Source of the DNA: Desulfonispora thiosulfatigenes DSM 11270
GTDB lineage: Bacteria; Bacillota; Peptococcia; Peptococcales; Desulfonisporaceae
Assembly (NCBI RefSeq): GCF_900176035.1
Contig: NZ_FWWT01000005.1
Span: 1-64,000, forward strand
Length of the DNA: 64,000 nucleotides
Direction: 5' to 3'
In this document: positions 3,328 to 64,000 of the stretch, one piece after another
Layout of the letters: each line of letters begins with the position of its first letter
Numbering within the stretch: the first letter of the stretch is position 1
Program-made: the position numbers and the translations under genes
The notes under the pieces: generated by a model
What the model was told of the DNA's origin: nothing
Database searches by the model: none
Seen by the model: only the letters and a program-made list of their open reading frames with translations

Positions 3328-4308
3328 TTATTTAATTCCTGCTGCTATCTTAGCATTATTTTGATGTTGAACATCAATTTTTCCATCTTTATGTCTAGTA
3401 CTATTTTTAAAATGAAGATCAAAATGACCATCCATTCCATTATTTTTTACCCAATCTAAATTATATCCTGCTCCATATCCTTCACTTCTCCAGGAAGTAT
3501 GAACTCCACCTGGATCTTTATCATTTCCAGCATGAGGCATACCTGAACAGCTTGCTGCCAGCTTTCTTCCATTATAATGAATTATTACAGGTTTAGCTGC
3601 CCATTTAAACTGGCCGCCCCAAATTTCCTTCATAATTTTTGTATCATCCATGCTTAGAGTTTCTAACTCTGCATGATTTGCCCCTGCTGTTCTTTTTACC
3701 ATAAAAGTTCTACCTGAATTAAAGTCTTCAACCTTTAAAACAGCTCCAATAGGTATTACATATTGAGCCTCTGTCCACCAATCTAAATACTCACCAAATT
3801 TTTCTCCTGGAGTTTCTTTTACATCAATATTATAAACTGGTACTTTTAATGTATCACCAATATGTATAACAGAATTTTCGTTTAAATTATTTGCTTTAAG
3901 AAAATCCTTAAAAGGAACTTGAAGTTCCATAGCTAATTTCCAAAGAGTATCGCCTTTTTTAACTTTATATGTATTTTCTGTACTTTCATCTTTATTAGGT
4001 TTAGGGTTTGTGTTTGTGTTTGTGTTTGTATTTGTATTTGTATCCTTCACAACTTGTCCACTATAATTTTGATTTGGAGTAGACCCTGGTATAGTAATAG
4101 TTTGTCCAATATAAAGGATTGTATTTCCTGTGGCTTTATTAGCGTTCATAAGTTCAGTACAACTAATATTAAACCTCTGACTTAATTTCCAAAAAGTATC
4201 CCCAGCTTTAATTTCATAATTTTCATTTTGGGCATTTGCTATACCTATACTTCCCGAGAGAACTGTTAAACCAACAACTGATGATAAAATCATTTTTTTA
4301 ATATTCAC
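3328..4308 (-). CDS. Secreted protein with two LysM domains
   Basis: A Sec signal peptide (about residues 1-27, ending near ANA) precedes two LysM peptidoglycan-binding repeats, each of the form Y.(I/V)K.GDT.WKL (about 30-75 and 115-160). They are separated by an Asn/Thr linker made of repeated NT pairs. The C-terminal ~160 residues form a conserved clostridial domain of unknown reaction, with a HAGNDKDPGG motif and a HFDLHF..S.RH motif rich in His and Asp; a metal-dependent wall hydrolase or peptidase role is possible but not shown. Start taken as the GTG at 4308, 6 bases after GGAGGGG; the upstream TTG/ATG alternatives overlap the ribosome site. Monocistronic. Confidence 0.85.
   Translation of the reverse strand: MNIKKMILSSVVGLTVLSGSIGIANAQNENYEIKAGDTFWKLSQRFNISCTELMNANKATGNTILYIGQTITIPGSTPNQNYSGQVVKDTNTNTNTNTNTNPKPNKDESTENTYKVKKGDTLWKLAMELQVPFKDFLKANNLNENSVIHIGDTLKVPVYNIDVKETPGEKFGEYLDWWTEAQYVIPIGAVLKVEDFNSGRTFMVKRTAGANHAELETLSMDDTKIMKEIWGGQFKWAAKPVIIHYNGRKLAASCSGMPHAGNDKDPGGVHTSWRSEGYGAGYNLDWVKNNGMDGHFDLHFKNSTRHKDGKIDVQHQNNAKIAAGIK
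4020..4056. repeat. Tandem 6-base repeat in the LysM linker
   Basis: About six consecutive copies of a hexamer (TTTGTG drifting to TTTGTA on the plus strand) encode the NTNTNT linker between the two LysM domains. Such an in-frame hexamer array can change copy number without breaking the gene, so linker length could vary between strains. Confidence 0.7.
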
Positions 4309-4419
4309 ACTTTTCCCCTCCAAATTATGTATTTACCAATTTTGCTATACCTATTATACCATTAAACATAGTAAAGTTGTTGCTTAATTTTCCAGATATT
4401 ACTGGCAAAATAATGTAAA

Positions 4420-58783: not shown

Positions 58784-59836
58784 ATGACGTGCAAAAGATG
58801 TAACAGTGTTCCAAAAACTAATTATGGAAAATGTAAAGCTTACATAAGTATCCCTATTGATGAATTATTTATTAAGGTTAAAGATATAATAGGAACATAT
58901 GCAAATGTAATTAGTATTAAAGAGGATTACCTAGAAGTTGAAGTAGAAGACTTTGAAAGTTTTATTATAAATTTGGGAGCTGATAAAAAATTATTCGAAA
59001 AAGAAAAAGATGATATCAATGTTCTCCCAATTTCATATGCTGATGTACTTAATTTCAGTGCATTTTCTAAAACAAAAACTCTCCAAAAATGGGTTAATAC
59101 AATAAAATCTAAAGATTTAATTTACATTTTATGTAACAAAAAACTTATTACCCTTTTCCAACCTATAATTAATATAAAAAATAATGAAATCTTTGGTTAC
59201 GAAGCTTTAACCAGGGGAATAAAGGAAAATGGCACAATTATGCCTCCCTTTGAGATGTTTAATCTAGCTAAAAAATGCGATTTAATTTTTAACCTTGACC
59301 GACAAGCCAGAGAAGCTGCCATAAATAATTCCGCAAAAAAAAATATAAAGAAAAATCTCTTTATTAACTTTTTACCTAGTGCTATTTATGATCCTAGTGT
59401 TTGTTTAAAAACCACTACAGAGCTAATTAATAAATATAATTTAAATCCGAGTGATATTGTTTTCGAGGTGGTAGAAACAGACCAAATCACTGATATTAAT
59501 CACCTTAATAATATTTTGAATTTTTATAGAAATAAGGACTTTAATATCGCCTTAGATGATGTAGGAAGCGGGTACTCCTCTCTTACAAATTTAGCAATAT
59601 TAAGTCCAAATTATATAAAAGTTGATATGGAGATAATTAGAGATATCCATAAAAATAGATTAAAACAGGCTATCTTAGATGCCCTAATTTCCATATCCAA
59701 AAGTATTGACTCTAAAGTGCTTGCTGAAGGGGTAGAAACCAAAGAAGAGTTCCAATATGTTCTAGCTAAAGGTGTGGATCTTGTGCAAGGATATTATTTT
59801 GGTAAGCCTACCGAAGAACCTTTACTGCATTTATAA
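58784..59836 (+). CDS. EAL-domain c-di-GMP phosphodiesterase
   Basis: A 350-residue cytoplasmic protein. The C-terminal EAL domain (about 122-350) has all catalytic and metal residues: FGYEALTRG (EAL 140-142), INFLP, FEVVETD, ALDDVGSGYSSL, IKVD, AEGVET and QGYYFGKP, so it should be active. The N-terminal ~115 residues, starting CKRC, are a small domain of unknown type. ATG after AGGAGG. Counterpart to the (interrupted) GGDEF receptor at 38003-39700. Confidence 0.92.
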   Translation: MTCKRCNSVPKTNYGKCKAYISIPIDELFIKVKDIIGTYANVISIKEDYLEVEVEDFESFIINLGADKKLFEKEKDDINVLPISYADVLNFSAFSKTKTLQKWVNTIKSKDLIYILCNKKLITLFQPIINIKNNEIFGYEALTRGIKENGTIMPPFEMFNLAKKCDLIFNLDRQAREAAINNSAKKNIKKNLFINFLPSAIYDPSVCLKTTTELINKYNLNPSDIVFEVVETDQITDINHLNNILNFYRNKDFNIALDDVGSGYSSLTNLAILSPNYIKVDMEIIRDIHKNRLKQAILDALISISKSIDSKVLAEGVETKEEFQYVLAKGVDLVQGYYFGKPTEEPLLHL

Positions 59837-59864: not shown

Positions 59865-61139
59865 TTATTGCAAATCCCTATAATATTTTGGATACTTCTC
59901 AGATTTATGATCCTGACAAATAGATAGGGATTTCTCTTTTTCTAATGGGAGCTTACCTTCAGCCAGGTTATAAACTTTTCGATTTGCTTTCTGCGCAAAA
60001 CAACCAATTTTAGGTATGCCTATTTGTTCATTCATCTCTTTCCATAGATGATTAATCCCCCTATCTCTAACGCTACCAAAATTCATCGGTACAAAATCGC
60101 ACGGATATAAATGTCCATCACCACTAACATAAGAGTGCTGTGTACCTGCCCCACAACCATATTTTTCTTCACTTTCTGTATAAGCAAAGCTTGTAATCTT
60201 TGGAAATCCTGATATTTCATTAGCTTTATGCTGTATCTCGATTAATTTTTGGCGTGTTTTAGGATCATAAAGTATATCTTCTATATCTTCTGTAGTTAAT
60301 AAACTTCCACTTAAGATTGGCTCTAATATTTTCACTTCGTGAGCCCCCTTATCTCCAGCAAACTTAAAAAACTGAAATAATTTATCTTGATCTACATCTT
60401 CTTTCATTACAACAGTTTGCACCATCGTATATAATCCAGCCTTTCTTGAATTATCAAGGGCAGCTAGAGCATAATCAAAAGCCTTATCGCTATTTCTATT
60501 TGCATTATGCTTGTTTCTATCAAAGGAATCTAAGCTAATTCCAATACTAAATAGGCCACTTTGCTTTAACCTTTTTGCCTTTTCTAAAGTTAAATTAACA
60601 CCACTAGTAAATAAAATAGCGGTACTTCTTTCATCTATAGCGTTAATAATTTCATAAATATCTTCTCTAACCATGGGTTCTCCCCCAGTAAGTCCAATGA
60701 TAGACGTTCCCATATCTTGCAAATCATTAATTACTTTTATCCATTCTGTAGTAGTTAATTCTTCTGCTATCTTTCTATTCTTTGCACTACAATATAGACA
60801 ATTATTAGGGCATTTGTGCGTTAAACATAAATAGATTGATATAGGTGCACTTCTTTTAGCATATATTTGTTGGGTAAATATATTATGCGGAGATAGACTT
60901 GCCGTTACATTAGTTATAAAAGCCTCTGACGGAAAAGGTGGTAAAAAGGAACTTAAAACATACTTATTTTCAAATTTAACTATTTTTTCACCTTTTAAAA
61001 TATTCAGCATCATTTTAATGTATTTATTTAAAGTAAAGTTTTTATCTTCTTTTAAAATATTATAAACTTTAACTAAATCTTTGGTAACCTTTGGGTTTAA
61101 ACTCATATTCATTAACATACCTATTTTAGACCAGTTCAT
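59865..61139 (-). CDS. SPASM radical SAM enzyme (PqqE/MftC-like)
   Basis: A 424-residue enzyme. A ~100-residue N-terminal region precedes the core with CPNNCLYC (about 114-121), TGGEPMVREDI and SIGISLDSFDR. The C-terminal SPASM-like region contains CGAGTQHSYVSGDGHLYPCD, CFAQKAN and SICQDHKSE. Similar enzymes modify ribosomal peptides or mature cofactors. ATG at 61139 is 9 bases after AAGGGGAG. It is preceded by a 42-aa ORF whose stop overlaps this ribosome site, and by two methyltransferases, so peptide modification is plausible but unproven. Confidence 0.88.
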   Translation of the reverse strand: MNWSKIGMLMNMSLNPKVTKDLVKVYNILKEDKNFTLNKYIKMMLNILKGEKIVKFENKYVLSSFLPPFPSEAFITNVTASLSPHNIFTQQIYAKRSAPISIYLCLTHKCPNNCLYCSAKNRKIAEELTTTEWIKVINDLQDMGTSIIGLTGGEPMVREDIYEIINAIDERSTAILFTSGVNLTLEKAKRLKQSGLFSIGISLDSFDRNKHNANRNSDKAFDYALAALDNSRKAGLYTMVQTVVMKEDVDQDKLFQFFKFAGDKGAHEVKILEPILSGSLLTTEDIEDILYDPKTRQKLIEIQHKANEISGFPKITSFAYTESEEKYGCGAGTQHSYVSGDGHLYPCDFVPMNFGSVRDRGINHLWKEMNEQIGIPKIGCFAQKANRKVYNLAEGKLPLEKEKSLSICQDHKSEKYPKYYRDLQ

Positions 61140-61154
61140 ATTTAGCAACTCCCC

Positions 61155-61283
61155 TTAATATCTGGTGGATGATATAACGATACTATTAGTGTCACCATCT
61201 TCATGCCCTACAACATATTTCCTAGGATCTTTGGAAAATTCCAGATGCAAATTTATGATTAATAACGTATTTTCCATTCTCAT
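61155..61283 (-). CDS. 42-aa ORF overlapping the methyltransferase end; candidate peptide substrate
   Basis: An ATG at 61283 (+1 frame relative to the methyltransferase) opens 42 codons ending ...DGDTNSIVISSTRY. Its TAA merges with the AAGGGGAG ribosome site of the radical SAM gene, the layout of a coupled cistron, and its third codon positions look like the neighbours'. There is only a weak purine-rich ribosome site upstream. A small ORF directly before a SPASM enzyme is the classic position of a peptide precursor, but chance openness of this frame remains possible. Confidence 0.35.
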   Translation of the reverse strand: MRMENTLLIINLHLEFSKDPRKYVVGHEDGDTNSIVISSTRY

Positions 61284-62085
61284 ACTTTTTCTTCTTTATC
61301 TCTGCGATAATATCATCTTTTACCTTTTCAAAATCCTGAAATATTTGTGCAGTTCCCGCTATTGCACCTGTTTTAGTTAACCATTCAAAAAGTTCTTCAG
61401 GGGTATCAAAAGCAAAATTATTTTCTTCCTCACTTATTTTCACAGTTGCAAAATTCTGGTTTTTAAACCATTTTTCTAAGCCTTCTGTGCCTTTTGGGAG
61501 ATGAAATCTTATGTCCATAAACTTGTTAACTTCTTGTTGATTTTTTTCCATTACCTTTAAAAATATTTCTTCAATTCCTTGCAACGTTCCCTGACTATTT
61601 ACAATCACACATGCTAACCCCTTTTTGTACAAAACTCGTTTAAATTGCTTTATAAGTTCCTTTTGATTAAAATAAGGTAAAGCCCAGCCACAAAAAACAA
61701 GGTCAAATTTTTCCTCAGTATTTTCTAGGAATTTCATCCCATCTTGATTTATAATCCGAACCTCACTACCTACTACTTCTTTAAATTGTTCTAACATTTT
61801 TGCCGATATATCAACTGCTGTTATTTCGCAATCTATCTCTTTTTCTAAAAGCTTTTTCGTAATATAACCTGTGCCGCAGGCAAAATCTAATATTTTTAAC
61901 CTTTTTTCTTCATTATAATACTCCGGTTTTATAATCTTATCTGTAAATTTACCCATCTCAGCCAGCCATAAATTATAGGTGCTTGCTACCTTATCATATT
62001 CTTTAGCATAATCACCACTGGTAATAATTTCTTTATTATATAATTTAGAAGCTCCTTTTAAATAAAGCTTTACCTTATTTAGCAT
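61222..62085 (-). CDS. Class I SAM-dependent methyltransferase
   Basis: A 287-residue methyltransferase. SAM site: ILDFACGTGYITKKLLEKE, ITAVDISAKML, INQDGMKFL and LVFCGWALPYF. The extra N- and C-terminal helices set the substrate, which is unknown. ATG at 62085 follows AAGGGTG by 6 bases; the frame overlaps the preceding methyltransferase stop. Same operon as the radical SAM enzyme. Confidence 0.87.
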   Translation of the reverse strand: MLNKVKLYLKGASKLYNKEIITSGDYAKEYDKVASTYNLWLAEMGKFTDKIIKPEYYNEEKRLKILDFACGTGYITKKLLEKEIDCEITAVDISAKMLEQFKEVVGSEVRIINQDGMKFLENTEEKFDLVFCGWALPYFNQKELIKQFKRVLYKKGLACVIVNSQGTLQGIEEIFLKVMEKNQQEVNKFMDIRFHLPKGTEGLEKWFKNQNFATVKISEEENNFAFDTPEELFEWLTKTGAIAGTAQIFQDFEKVKDDIIAEIKKKKYENGKYVINHKFASGIFQRS

Positions 62086-62647
62086 TTTTTTCACCCTTAA
62101 TGATAAAATAATATTTTTCTTGCCTACACAAGTGGACAGTAAACCTATCCTTTAGTAACTCCTTGACTTCCCTGCTCGTTTTAAAATAAAGTTTACCAAA
62201 TAAAAAATACTCAAATAACCTCAATAGTTTAGTCCGTAAATATTTTCTATCAAAATCAAGAATTAAAATTTTACCCTTATCTTTTAATACTCGCTCTATT
62301 TCAACGATTAATTTTTCTTGCTGGGAAATGTGATGTAATACATCGGCTAAAATAACAACATCTATACTTTTATCTTTAAAATTCGTGGTTAAAGCATCTC
62401 CTACAATTGGTACAATCTTTTTATTAGGTTTAATTTTAGAAAGCATTTTTTCACTTTCATCTAATATATATACTTTTTTACAGTCTTCTTTTAAATGCTG
62501 AGCTAAATGACCCGTACCACCACCGATATCTAAAATTATCTCTGTACCCTGTAAATTTAAAACTTCCTTTATTTCCCTAACCTTATATAGTTTAAATGTT
62601 CTCATAAAAGAATCATAATGAGCAGAAACCTTATCAAAATCCTTCAA
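62075..62647 (-). CDS. Class I SAM-dependent methyltransferase
   Basis: A 190-residue methyltransferase: ILDIGGGTGHLAQHL, YILDESEKML, VDVVILADVLHHI-like VVILADVLHHISQ, and LKDKGKILILDFD. UbiE/Methyltransf_11 class. It overlaps the next methyltransferase and follows the XRE regulator by 27 bases. Confidence 0.88.
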   Translation of the reverse strand: MKDFDKVSAHYDSFMRTFKLYKVREIKEVLNLQGTEIILDIGGGTGHLAQHLKEDCKKVYILDESEKMLSKIKPNKKIVPIVGDALTTNFKDKSIDVVILADVLHHISQQEKLIVEIERVLKDKGKILILDFDRKYLRTKLLRLFEYFLFGKLYFKTSREVKELLKDRFTVHLCRQEKYYFIIKGEKNAK

Positions 62648-62674
62648 AGTAATATCTTCCCCTTTAACTATTAC

Positions 62675-63127
62675 TTAAATATTAGCCAATTCAGCTAGTC
62701 TTTTCTTCATATAGTCAAGATCAAAAGAAGAACTAATCCTCTTATTTTGCTCGTTTAAAATCCTATAATGGTTGCTTATTATATTCTGCTGTATTTTATA
62801 ATTATTGCATTTTTCTACATCACGCCACCATACCTTACCCCCTAGGGTATTTTCATAATCTAGTTCATATTTTTTAAAGGCAAGAGACAAAATAATATCT
62901 TCTACATCCCCACCAAAATTCATTTGCATTATTTTGCTATTTTTAAATATAGAAGCTACCGCTACAGCCCCCATCCAACCTAAACTTGCTCGTTCTTTTT
63001 CTATTTGTACCAAAGTCTTTTTTGAAATTCCTATAGTTTCAGCCATTTTATCTTGCGTAAAATTACTTTCATTTCTTATAAGTTTAAGATTAGTATCTAT
63101 AATTTTTATAAATGCATTACGATCCAA
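62675..63127 (-). CDS. XRE-family transcriptional regulator
   Basis: A 150-residue regulator with an N-terminal Cro/C1-type helix-turn-helix (TQDKMAETIGISKKTLVQIEKER, about 22-44) and a C-terminal segment of ~100 residues with no recognised domain. A TTG at 63127 is 5 bases after AGAGGTG, so it is favoured; an upstream ATG at 63148 lies right against the palindrome at 63151-63166. First gene of the operon with two methyltransferases and a radical SAM enzyme, presumably its autoregulator. Confidence 0.85.
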   Translation of the reverse strand: MDRNAFIKIIDTNLKLIRNESNFTQDKMAETIGISKKTLVQIEKERASLGWMGAVAVASIFKNSKIMQMNFGGDVEDIILSLAFKKYELDYENTLGGKVWWRDVEKCNNYKIQQNIISNHYRILNEQNKRISSSFDLDYMKKRLAELANI

Positions 63128-63150
63128 AATATCACCTCTATGTATCATTT

Positions 63151-63166
63151 AGTGTAATTTTACACT
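63151..63166 (-). promoter_or_regulatory. Candidate operator of the XRE regulator
   Basis: Inverted repeat AGTGTA-ATTT-TACACT immediately upstream of the XRE gene. Arm sequence and spacing fit a Cro/C1-type dimer site; autoregulation is inferred. Confidence 0.5.
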
Positions 63167-63193
63167 TTAGTATACCTTTTGTAAATATAAAAA

Positions 63194-63251
63194 TGCTCCA
63201 TTTAAAGTATCCAGATTATTATTGTTTAATCTGGATACTTTAAATGGAGCA
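63194..63251 (-). terminator. Long perfect terminator after the SMR pair
   Basis: A 25-bp perfect stem (TGCTCCATTTAAAGTATCCA... and complement) with an 8-base loop and a T5 run on the minus strand. It separates the SMR genes from the XRE operon. Confidence 0.9.
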
Positions 63252-63365: not shown

Positions 63366-63680
63366 TTATCCCACAAACTTTAAACCTATAGCCCCTGTAA
63401 TAATAAACCCTAGGAAAATAATTCTTTTTAAATTAGCTGGTTCTTTAAAAAATATTATCCCCATTAAAACTGCTCCTGCCGCTCCAAGCCCAGTCCAAAT
63501 AGCATAAGCAGTTCCCATGGCTATTTGACGCATTGATAATGATAAGAAAATAAAGCCCGAGGCAAAGATTAGTGCAATTAAAAAAAGCCGTGCTATACTC
63601 TTTTTTTGTAAATAATAATTAATACTCGCAACACCTAAGATTTCACCTAAGCTTGCTATAATCAAGTACATCCAAGCCAA
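63366..63680 (-). CDS. SMR-family efflux subunit (paired)
   Basis: A 104-residue four-helix protein. The TTG at 63680 is 8 bases after AAGGAGG and gives the family start (M)AWMYLIIASLGEILG, where the glutamate is the conserved proton/substrate residue. MGTAYAIWTGLGAAG is typical of SugE/YkkC-type pairs, some of which export guanidinium. It starts one base after the stop of the other subunit, so the two probably form a heterodimer. Confidence 0.92.
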   Translation of the reverse strand: MAWMYLIIASLGEILGVASINYYLQKKSIARLFLIALIFASGFIFLSLSMRQIAMGTAYAIWTGLGAAGAVLMGIIFFKEPANLKRIIFLGFIITGAIGLKFVG

Positions 63681-63681
63681 A

Positions 63682-64000
63682 CTATTTTCCTCCTTCATTT
63701 ACTTGTAAATCCTTTTTATTTTCTGCTCTTTCTTTAATTTTTTCTTCCTCAGTAGATAATTTAATTCCTATAACTCCTGTAATAATTAGCCCAATAAAAA
63801 GAGCCTTAGCCAGTGAAAAGTCTGCCTTAAAAACTAAAAAGTCTATTAAAACAATGCCTGTAGCACCCATACCCGTAAAGACAGCATAAACCGTTCCAGA
63901 AGGAAGAGTATCGCATGCTTTTATTACAAAATAAAAGCTTAAAATTATCATAACTATTGTCCCTAGCCACTGCCAAGAGGTCGATGAATGTCTTAGCCCA
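63682..64000 (-). CDS. SMR-family efflux subunit (partner), runs off the window end
   Basis: The visible 105 residues read (from the window end) ...HSSTSWQWLGTIVMI, then CDTLPSGTVYAVFTGMGATG, and end in a charged tail (EEEKIKERAENKK). The N-terminus including TM1 with its glutamate lies beyond base 64000. The longer, charged C-terminus distinguishes it from its partner, as in YkkCD/EbrAB-type pairs. Whether a guanidine riboswitch lies upstream cannot be seen. Confidence 0.9.
   Translation of the reverse strand, partial: GLRHSSTSWQWLGTIVMIILSFYFVIKACDTLPSGTVYAVFTGMGATGIVLIDFLVFKADFSLAKALFIGLIITGVIGIKLSTEEEKIKERAENKKDLQVNEGGK

Follow-up and report, generated by a model that had tools for sequence, protein, structure and literature searches.

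A four-gene run near the end of the window (the whole 64,000-nucleotide stretch of DNA analysed) is best explained as an autorepressed operon whose product is a non-ribosomal small molecule, in which a radical SAM enzyme and two methyltransferases (MT1 and MT2) would make or tailor a probably acyl- or polyketide-like compound, a reading to which we give about an even chance of being right. The original prediction of a small autoregulated biosynthetic locus is supported, as the promoter, operator and XRE head is conserved in genomes of the same class and the MT1-MT2-radical SAM triad is conserved elsewhere.

Operon layout

As originally predicted, the window ORFs place all four genes on the minus strand in the order XRE, MT1, MT2 and radical SAM, with the following features:

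63194–63251, minus strand: 25-bp perfect hairpin with T-run, predicted terminator of the upstream SMR genes (z = -11)
63157–63185, minus strand: predicted promoter, -35 TTTACA, 17 nt, -10 TAAAAT inside the operator; -35/operator spacing the same in four genomes
63151–63166, unstranded: predicted operator palindrome, half-sites AGTGTAA and TTACACT around TT; exact match once in the genome; the site recurs 5' of XRE in G032 and G033 and, in degenerate form, in G031
62675–63127, minus strand: XRE-family HTH regulator (Pfam HTH_19); ORF opens at ATG 63148, probable start TTG 63127
62075–62647, minus strand: MT1, small class I SAM methyltransferase with TTG start (Pfam, NCBIfam, ortholog alignment)
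61222–62085, minus strand: MT2, class I SAM methyltransferase, BioC-like below cut-off (Pfam/NCBIfam); conserved start ATG 62085, ORF opens at GTG 62094
61155–61283, minus strand: 42-aa ORF put forward as precursor and taken here as a chance frame; not found in the seven other triads, gap shuffling 5.5%
59865–61139, minus strand: radical SAM enzyme, 424 aa, ATG 61139 (Pfam Radical_SAM 87 bits, SPASM 26 bits; triad orthologs)
60789–60812, minus strand: CX3CX2C SAM-cluster motif, C110, C114 and C117 (from sequence; kept in 18/20 family members)
60000–60155, minus strand: three family-invariant auxiliary cysteines, C329, C347 and C380 (20/20 family members)

The genes had been described as overlapping, which holds for MT1 and MT2 (spacing about -11 to -20 nt, depending on the MT2 start) but not for XRE and MT1, which are 27 nt apart, or for MT2 and the radical SAM gene, separated by 82 nt. 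Relatives of MT2 begin at window residue M4, so that its start is probably ATG 62085; likewise, XRE homologs begin at window residue 8, placing the XRE start probably at TTG 63127, behind GAGGTG.

Upstream and codirectional with the operon lies an overlapping pair of SMR-type small multidrug transporter genes (63366–63999, running on to about 64099 in the contig). These end at the 25-bp hairpin terminator, so that the XRE-MT1-MT2-radical SAM run is, by sequence, its own transcription unit; a fused SMR-XRE unit was rejected because the terminator stands between them. The earlier statement that no transporter or protease is present is thus correct for the triad runs, which hold no peptidase or exporter, but overlooks the SMR pair upstream on the same strand, albeit behind a terminator. 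At the other end, an EAL-domain gene of the c-di-GMP phosphodiesterase type (58784–59836) converges on the operon, leaving 28 nt to the stop codon of the radical SAM gene. No riboswitch or other known RNA was found in 59000–70000.

A conserved promoter-operator head

The 7+7-bp palindrome at 63151–63166, AGTGTAANNTTACACT, had been noted as autoregulatory-looking, and comparison with other genomes indicates that it is real. XRE homologs of 58–62% identity occur in three genomes of the same class (G031, G032 and G033), and across 12 genomes (~40 Mb) the exact 16-mer was found three times, always immediately 5' of a homologous XRE; this genome (G000), G032 and G033 have one copy apiece, and the other nine genomes scanned have none. 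This restriction to sites upstream of homologous XRE genes argues that the palindrome is more than chance. All four genomes share TTTACA followed by 13 nt and the palindrome, the degenerate form included, and in all four the -10 element (TAAAAT or TAAATT) falls inside the palindrome. There is thus good comparative evidence that XRE autorepresses its own promoter through this predicted operator.

A conserved MT1-MT2-radical SAM module

MT1, MT2 and the radical SAM gene recur in the same order and strand in eight genomes, the window genome and seven others, of which six are close (L006, a Tissierellales MAG, L032, L033, L054, L055 and L056) and one is diverged (L059). In the three close relatives that were fully aligned, identity to the window ranges from 56 to 68% across all three proteins, and from 65 to 68% for the radical SAM enzyme; those of L054–L056 score 749–857 bits against the radical SAM profile. 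The radical SAM enzymes of the seven close triads group in a single supported clade, where the window enzyme stands next to that of L006, and in a wider tree all eight, together with three nested unlinked enzymes, form a clade with 91/90 support. The single-gene trees of MT1 and MT2 are poorly resolved, so strict co-inheritance with the radical SAM enzyme is not readable from them.

The triad is rare, being found in only ~1% of sampled genomes: 3/249 in the order of the L006 genome, 4/391 in its class, and 1/46 in the window's own class, namely the window genome itself. Its flanks all differ, the close triads share no PKS, NRPS or lipid genes, and no biotin genes were seen beside triads. XRE stands outside the module, as it has no ortholog in the L006 genome and matches no other locus compared. 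We found no description of the trio in the part of the literature covered. Taken together, these comparisons indicate that MT1-MT2-radical SAM is a conserved, uncharacterised module across anaerobes.

In the divergent triad L059 there is also a gene for an alpha/beta hydrolase that weakly resembles BioH, overlapping the radical SAM gene by 4 nt. Elsewhere, an MT2-like gene in G006 stands alone, with neither a radical SAM gene nor MT1 adjoining it, and no phage or viral carriage of MT2 was found in viral contigs.

The radical SAM enzyme and its methyltransferases

The radical SAM enzyme consists of an N-terminal region of ~95 aa, a radical SAM domain and a SPASM-like tail. It belongs to the radical SAM superfamily by its C110/C114/C117 motif and its PF04055 match (87 bits), and passes the Pfam SPASM profile marginally (26.3 bits, cut-off 21.5). 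SPASM domains with two auxiliary clusters carry a seven-cysteine pattern that includes CX2CX5CX3C. This pattern is absent from the enzyme, and in the 20-member family alignment a fourth tail cysteine is variable, while the three invariant cysteines suggest that the tail carries one auxiliary cluster. Two radical SAM relatives (L057 6282–7586 and L058 5755–7062) retain the three tail cysteines and have lost CX3CX2C (SRYPNNKYLDGD), so they are probable pseudo-enzymes.

The label of a PqqE/MftC-like SPASM enzyme is loose, as the PqqE and MftC family models reach only 109/381 and 86/265 bits, far under their cut-offs; the enzyme is not PqqE or MftC. No equivalog cut-off was reached by any NCBIfam model, the best for the radical SAM enzyme being NirJ2 (143/500 bits) and AhbD (128/500 bits). 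These matches, together with a resemblance of MT1 to UbiE (its best NCBIfam match at 60/158 bits, under cut-off), would fit a trio that makes or repairs an intracellular cofactor such as a tetrapyrrole or quinone. Against this, the NirJ2 and AhbD scores lie far under cut-off, occurrence in ~1% of genomes would be unusual for a general cofactor, and the genome has a separate radical SAM relative (C22, 32% identity) of the size and match position expected of heme-type enzymes; we consider a cofactor role unlikely.

RNA and protein are known substrates of class I methyltransferases and of radical SAM enzymes alike, and the trio could in principle modify a macromolecule (tRNA, rRNA or protein). 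However, the proteins contain no RNA-binding domain and match no RNA methyltransferase family above its NCBIfam cut-off, and distant kin of the radical SAM enzyme adjoin acyl and lipid enzymes, which makes this alternative quite unlikely.

No peptide partner

The closest solved relatives of the radical SAM enzyme, by sequence and fold search, are SkfB (PDB 6efn) and PqqE, both RiPP enzymes, and some RiPP precursors are unlinked to their enzymes, so that the substrate might be a ribosomal peptide whose gene lies at another genomic locus. The structure models behind the fold search, built from the window and L006 sequences only, are poor (mean pLDDT 48.5 and 51.0), and the fold search therefore counts as weak support only. 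An RRE is present in RiPP enzymes including SkfB and CteB (PMC8326336). In the window operon, no protein has a Pfam or NCBIfam match to an RRE or PqqD-like domain; a divergent RRE may lie in the N-terminal region of the radical SAM enzyme, where the structure model is poor. Furthermore, when all short frames lying up to 1.5 kb from the triads in eight genomes were compared at the protein level, no shared small ORF emerged: apart from a few marginal ones, the matches traced back to the triad genes themselves, mostly to their antisense strands and ends. An unlinked peptide is accordingly very unlikely.

A peptide encoded within the operon, on which the radical SAM enzyme and the methyltransferases would act, was originally raised as a possibility. 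The 42-aa ORF proposed as its precursor does exist at 61155–61283, with its stop abutting, as described, the AAGGGGAG ribosome site of the radical SAM gene. Half of the frame, however, is out-of-frame MT2 sequence and the C-terminal half lies in the unconserved 82-nt gap. In the seven other triads MT2 and the radical SAM gene are 3–25 nt apart, or overlap in L059, so that the frame has no counterpart in any of them. When the gap was shuffled, 5.5% of trials produced a frame of 42 aa or more with its end in the gap, and the window contains 56 ATG ORFs of 42–99 aa, so the length is not unusual. The 42-aa frame is thus very likely a chance reading frame. The precursor claim thus falls by the refuting condition originally set for it, lack of the frame in relatives. 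As there is also no conserved small ORF beside the related radical SAM genes, no match to an RRE or PqqD family, and neither a protease nor an exporter conserved nearby, a RiPP locus of this kind is highly improbable.

The 82-nt gap was also considered as a genomic repeat and as a structured RNA, and rejected as both (single copy in the genome; z = +0.7). In L006, at about 4230–4350, a small frame with a GTG start (MSSKFTSSNFLIFPAAVLVNKIGNSQSSAESKKPKETI, read by eye) precedes a terminator-like hairpin upstream of the triad; it has no counterpart among the short frames near other triads.

Viperin-like anti-phage nucleotide chemistry, for which patchy distribution and a 65-bit match of pVip models might speak, is hardly credible, as that match is limited to the generic radical SAM barrel, no defence neighbours are present and pVip is not known to have a SPASM tail or methyltransferases; a defence system in general was rejected, having only generic barrel and methyltransferase matches.

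Neighbours of the wider family and a proposed mechanism

In G032 (L075 6485–16491), behind the homologous XRE come UbiA, an old-yellow-enzyme-type oxidoreductase, ACP, a BioF/serine-palmitoyltransferase-like protein, a lipid kinase, a ThiL-like protein, FabF and an epimerase, and the run closes with a distant relative of the radical SAM enzyme; G033 has the same gene set, split over two contigs (L076 8–6413 and L078 224–3873). The radical SAM relatives closing these two runs score ~116–120 bits, and the runs themselves look like an uncharacterised lipid- or polyketide-like cluster. Other relatives lie beside a GMC oxidoreductase in seven genomes, beside GH3 and a B12-radical SAM gene in L065, and beside an NRPS with reductase in L067. 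In L060 (5102–12227), a relative is accompanied by a ketosynthase, hydrolase, methyltransferase, carotenoid-synthesis-like membrane protein, epimerase, polyketide cyclase and putative cyclase. A recurrent operon (L026, L027, L061–L064 and L068) combines a relative with a four-helix membrane-like protein, a ~180-aa protein that has no Pfam match and a GMC-type oxidoreductase, and is possibly another non-RiPP radical SAM system.

This recurring company of KS, ACP, UbiA, polyketide cyclase, carotenoid-type, GMC, GH3 and NRPS-reductase genes speaks for substrates that are small and acyl- or polyketide-like, and against peptides. The relatives with acyl or polyketide neighbours are ~25–37% identical to the window enzyme, and KS, ACP or acyl-chain genes are absent from the window run and the close triad runs, being found only beside these distant relatives. 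Because the window operon has no substrate-making gene, we infer the substrate class from the distant relatives alone.

In the small-molecule operon that we favour, the comparisons above support transcription of XRE from the TTTACA-17-TAAAAT promoter, whose -10 lies inside the operator; XRE would bind this operator and block RNA polymerase until a ligand or stress relieves the block. The radical SAM enzyme would generate a 5'-deoxyadenosyl radical at its CX3CX2C cluster, and its partly Cys-ligated auxiliary cluster would assist in converting a small substrate, probably an acyl-, polyketide- or lipid-like one; MT1 and MT2 would methylate either this substrate or the resulting product, at O, N or C, and the 42-aa frame would have no role.

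More tentatively, the three-cysteine-tail enzymes could represent a previously undescribed radical SAM family acting on acyl- or polyketide-type molecules in anaerobes, with a class-specific XRE/operator head recombined onto different operons of the family, here the MT-MT-radical SAM trio, giving a methylated product of new structure; we see this as possible, though doubtful. Many radical SAM/SPASM enzymes are assumed to act on ribosomal peptides. With no peptide partner in eight genomes and relatives beside acyl, polyketide and lipid genes, the trio offers a tractable non-RiPP radical SAM case, and the conserved promoter and operator provide a direct handle for derepression and product search.

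Comparison with known systems

SkfB, the sporulation killing factor maturase, is the closest solved relative over the radical SAM and tail region, and shares a single-cluster, twitch-type tail. It differs in having an N-terminal RRE and a peptide substrate, whereas the window enzyme shows no RRE family and no precursor, and the SkfB family model TIGR04403 gives it 68/300 bits. PqqE and MftC resemble it in their radical SAM and SPASM-like architecture; the window locus, by contrast, lacks PqqA/MftA, PqqD/MftB and the 7-Cys motif. NirJ2 and AhbD, its best if distant NCBIfam matches, have different gene neighbours, and other radical SAM relatives exist in the window genome. For MT2, the best NCBIfam match is the malonyl-ACP O-methyltransferase BioC, at 94.5 bits about half of the cut-off of 185. 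The XRE-headed runs of G032 and G033, though built from other structural genes and an only distantly related radical SAM enzyme, share with the window operon a homologous XRE and the same promoter and operator, and their radical SAM enzyme falls within the same broad family.
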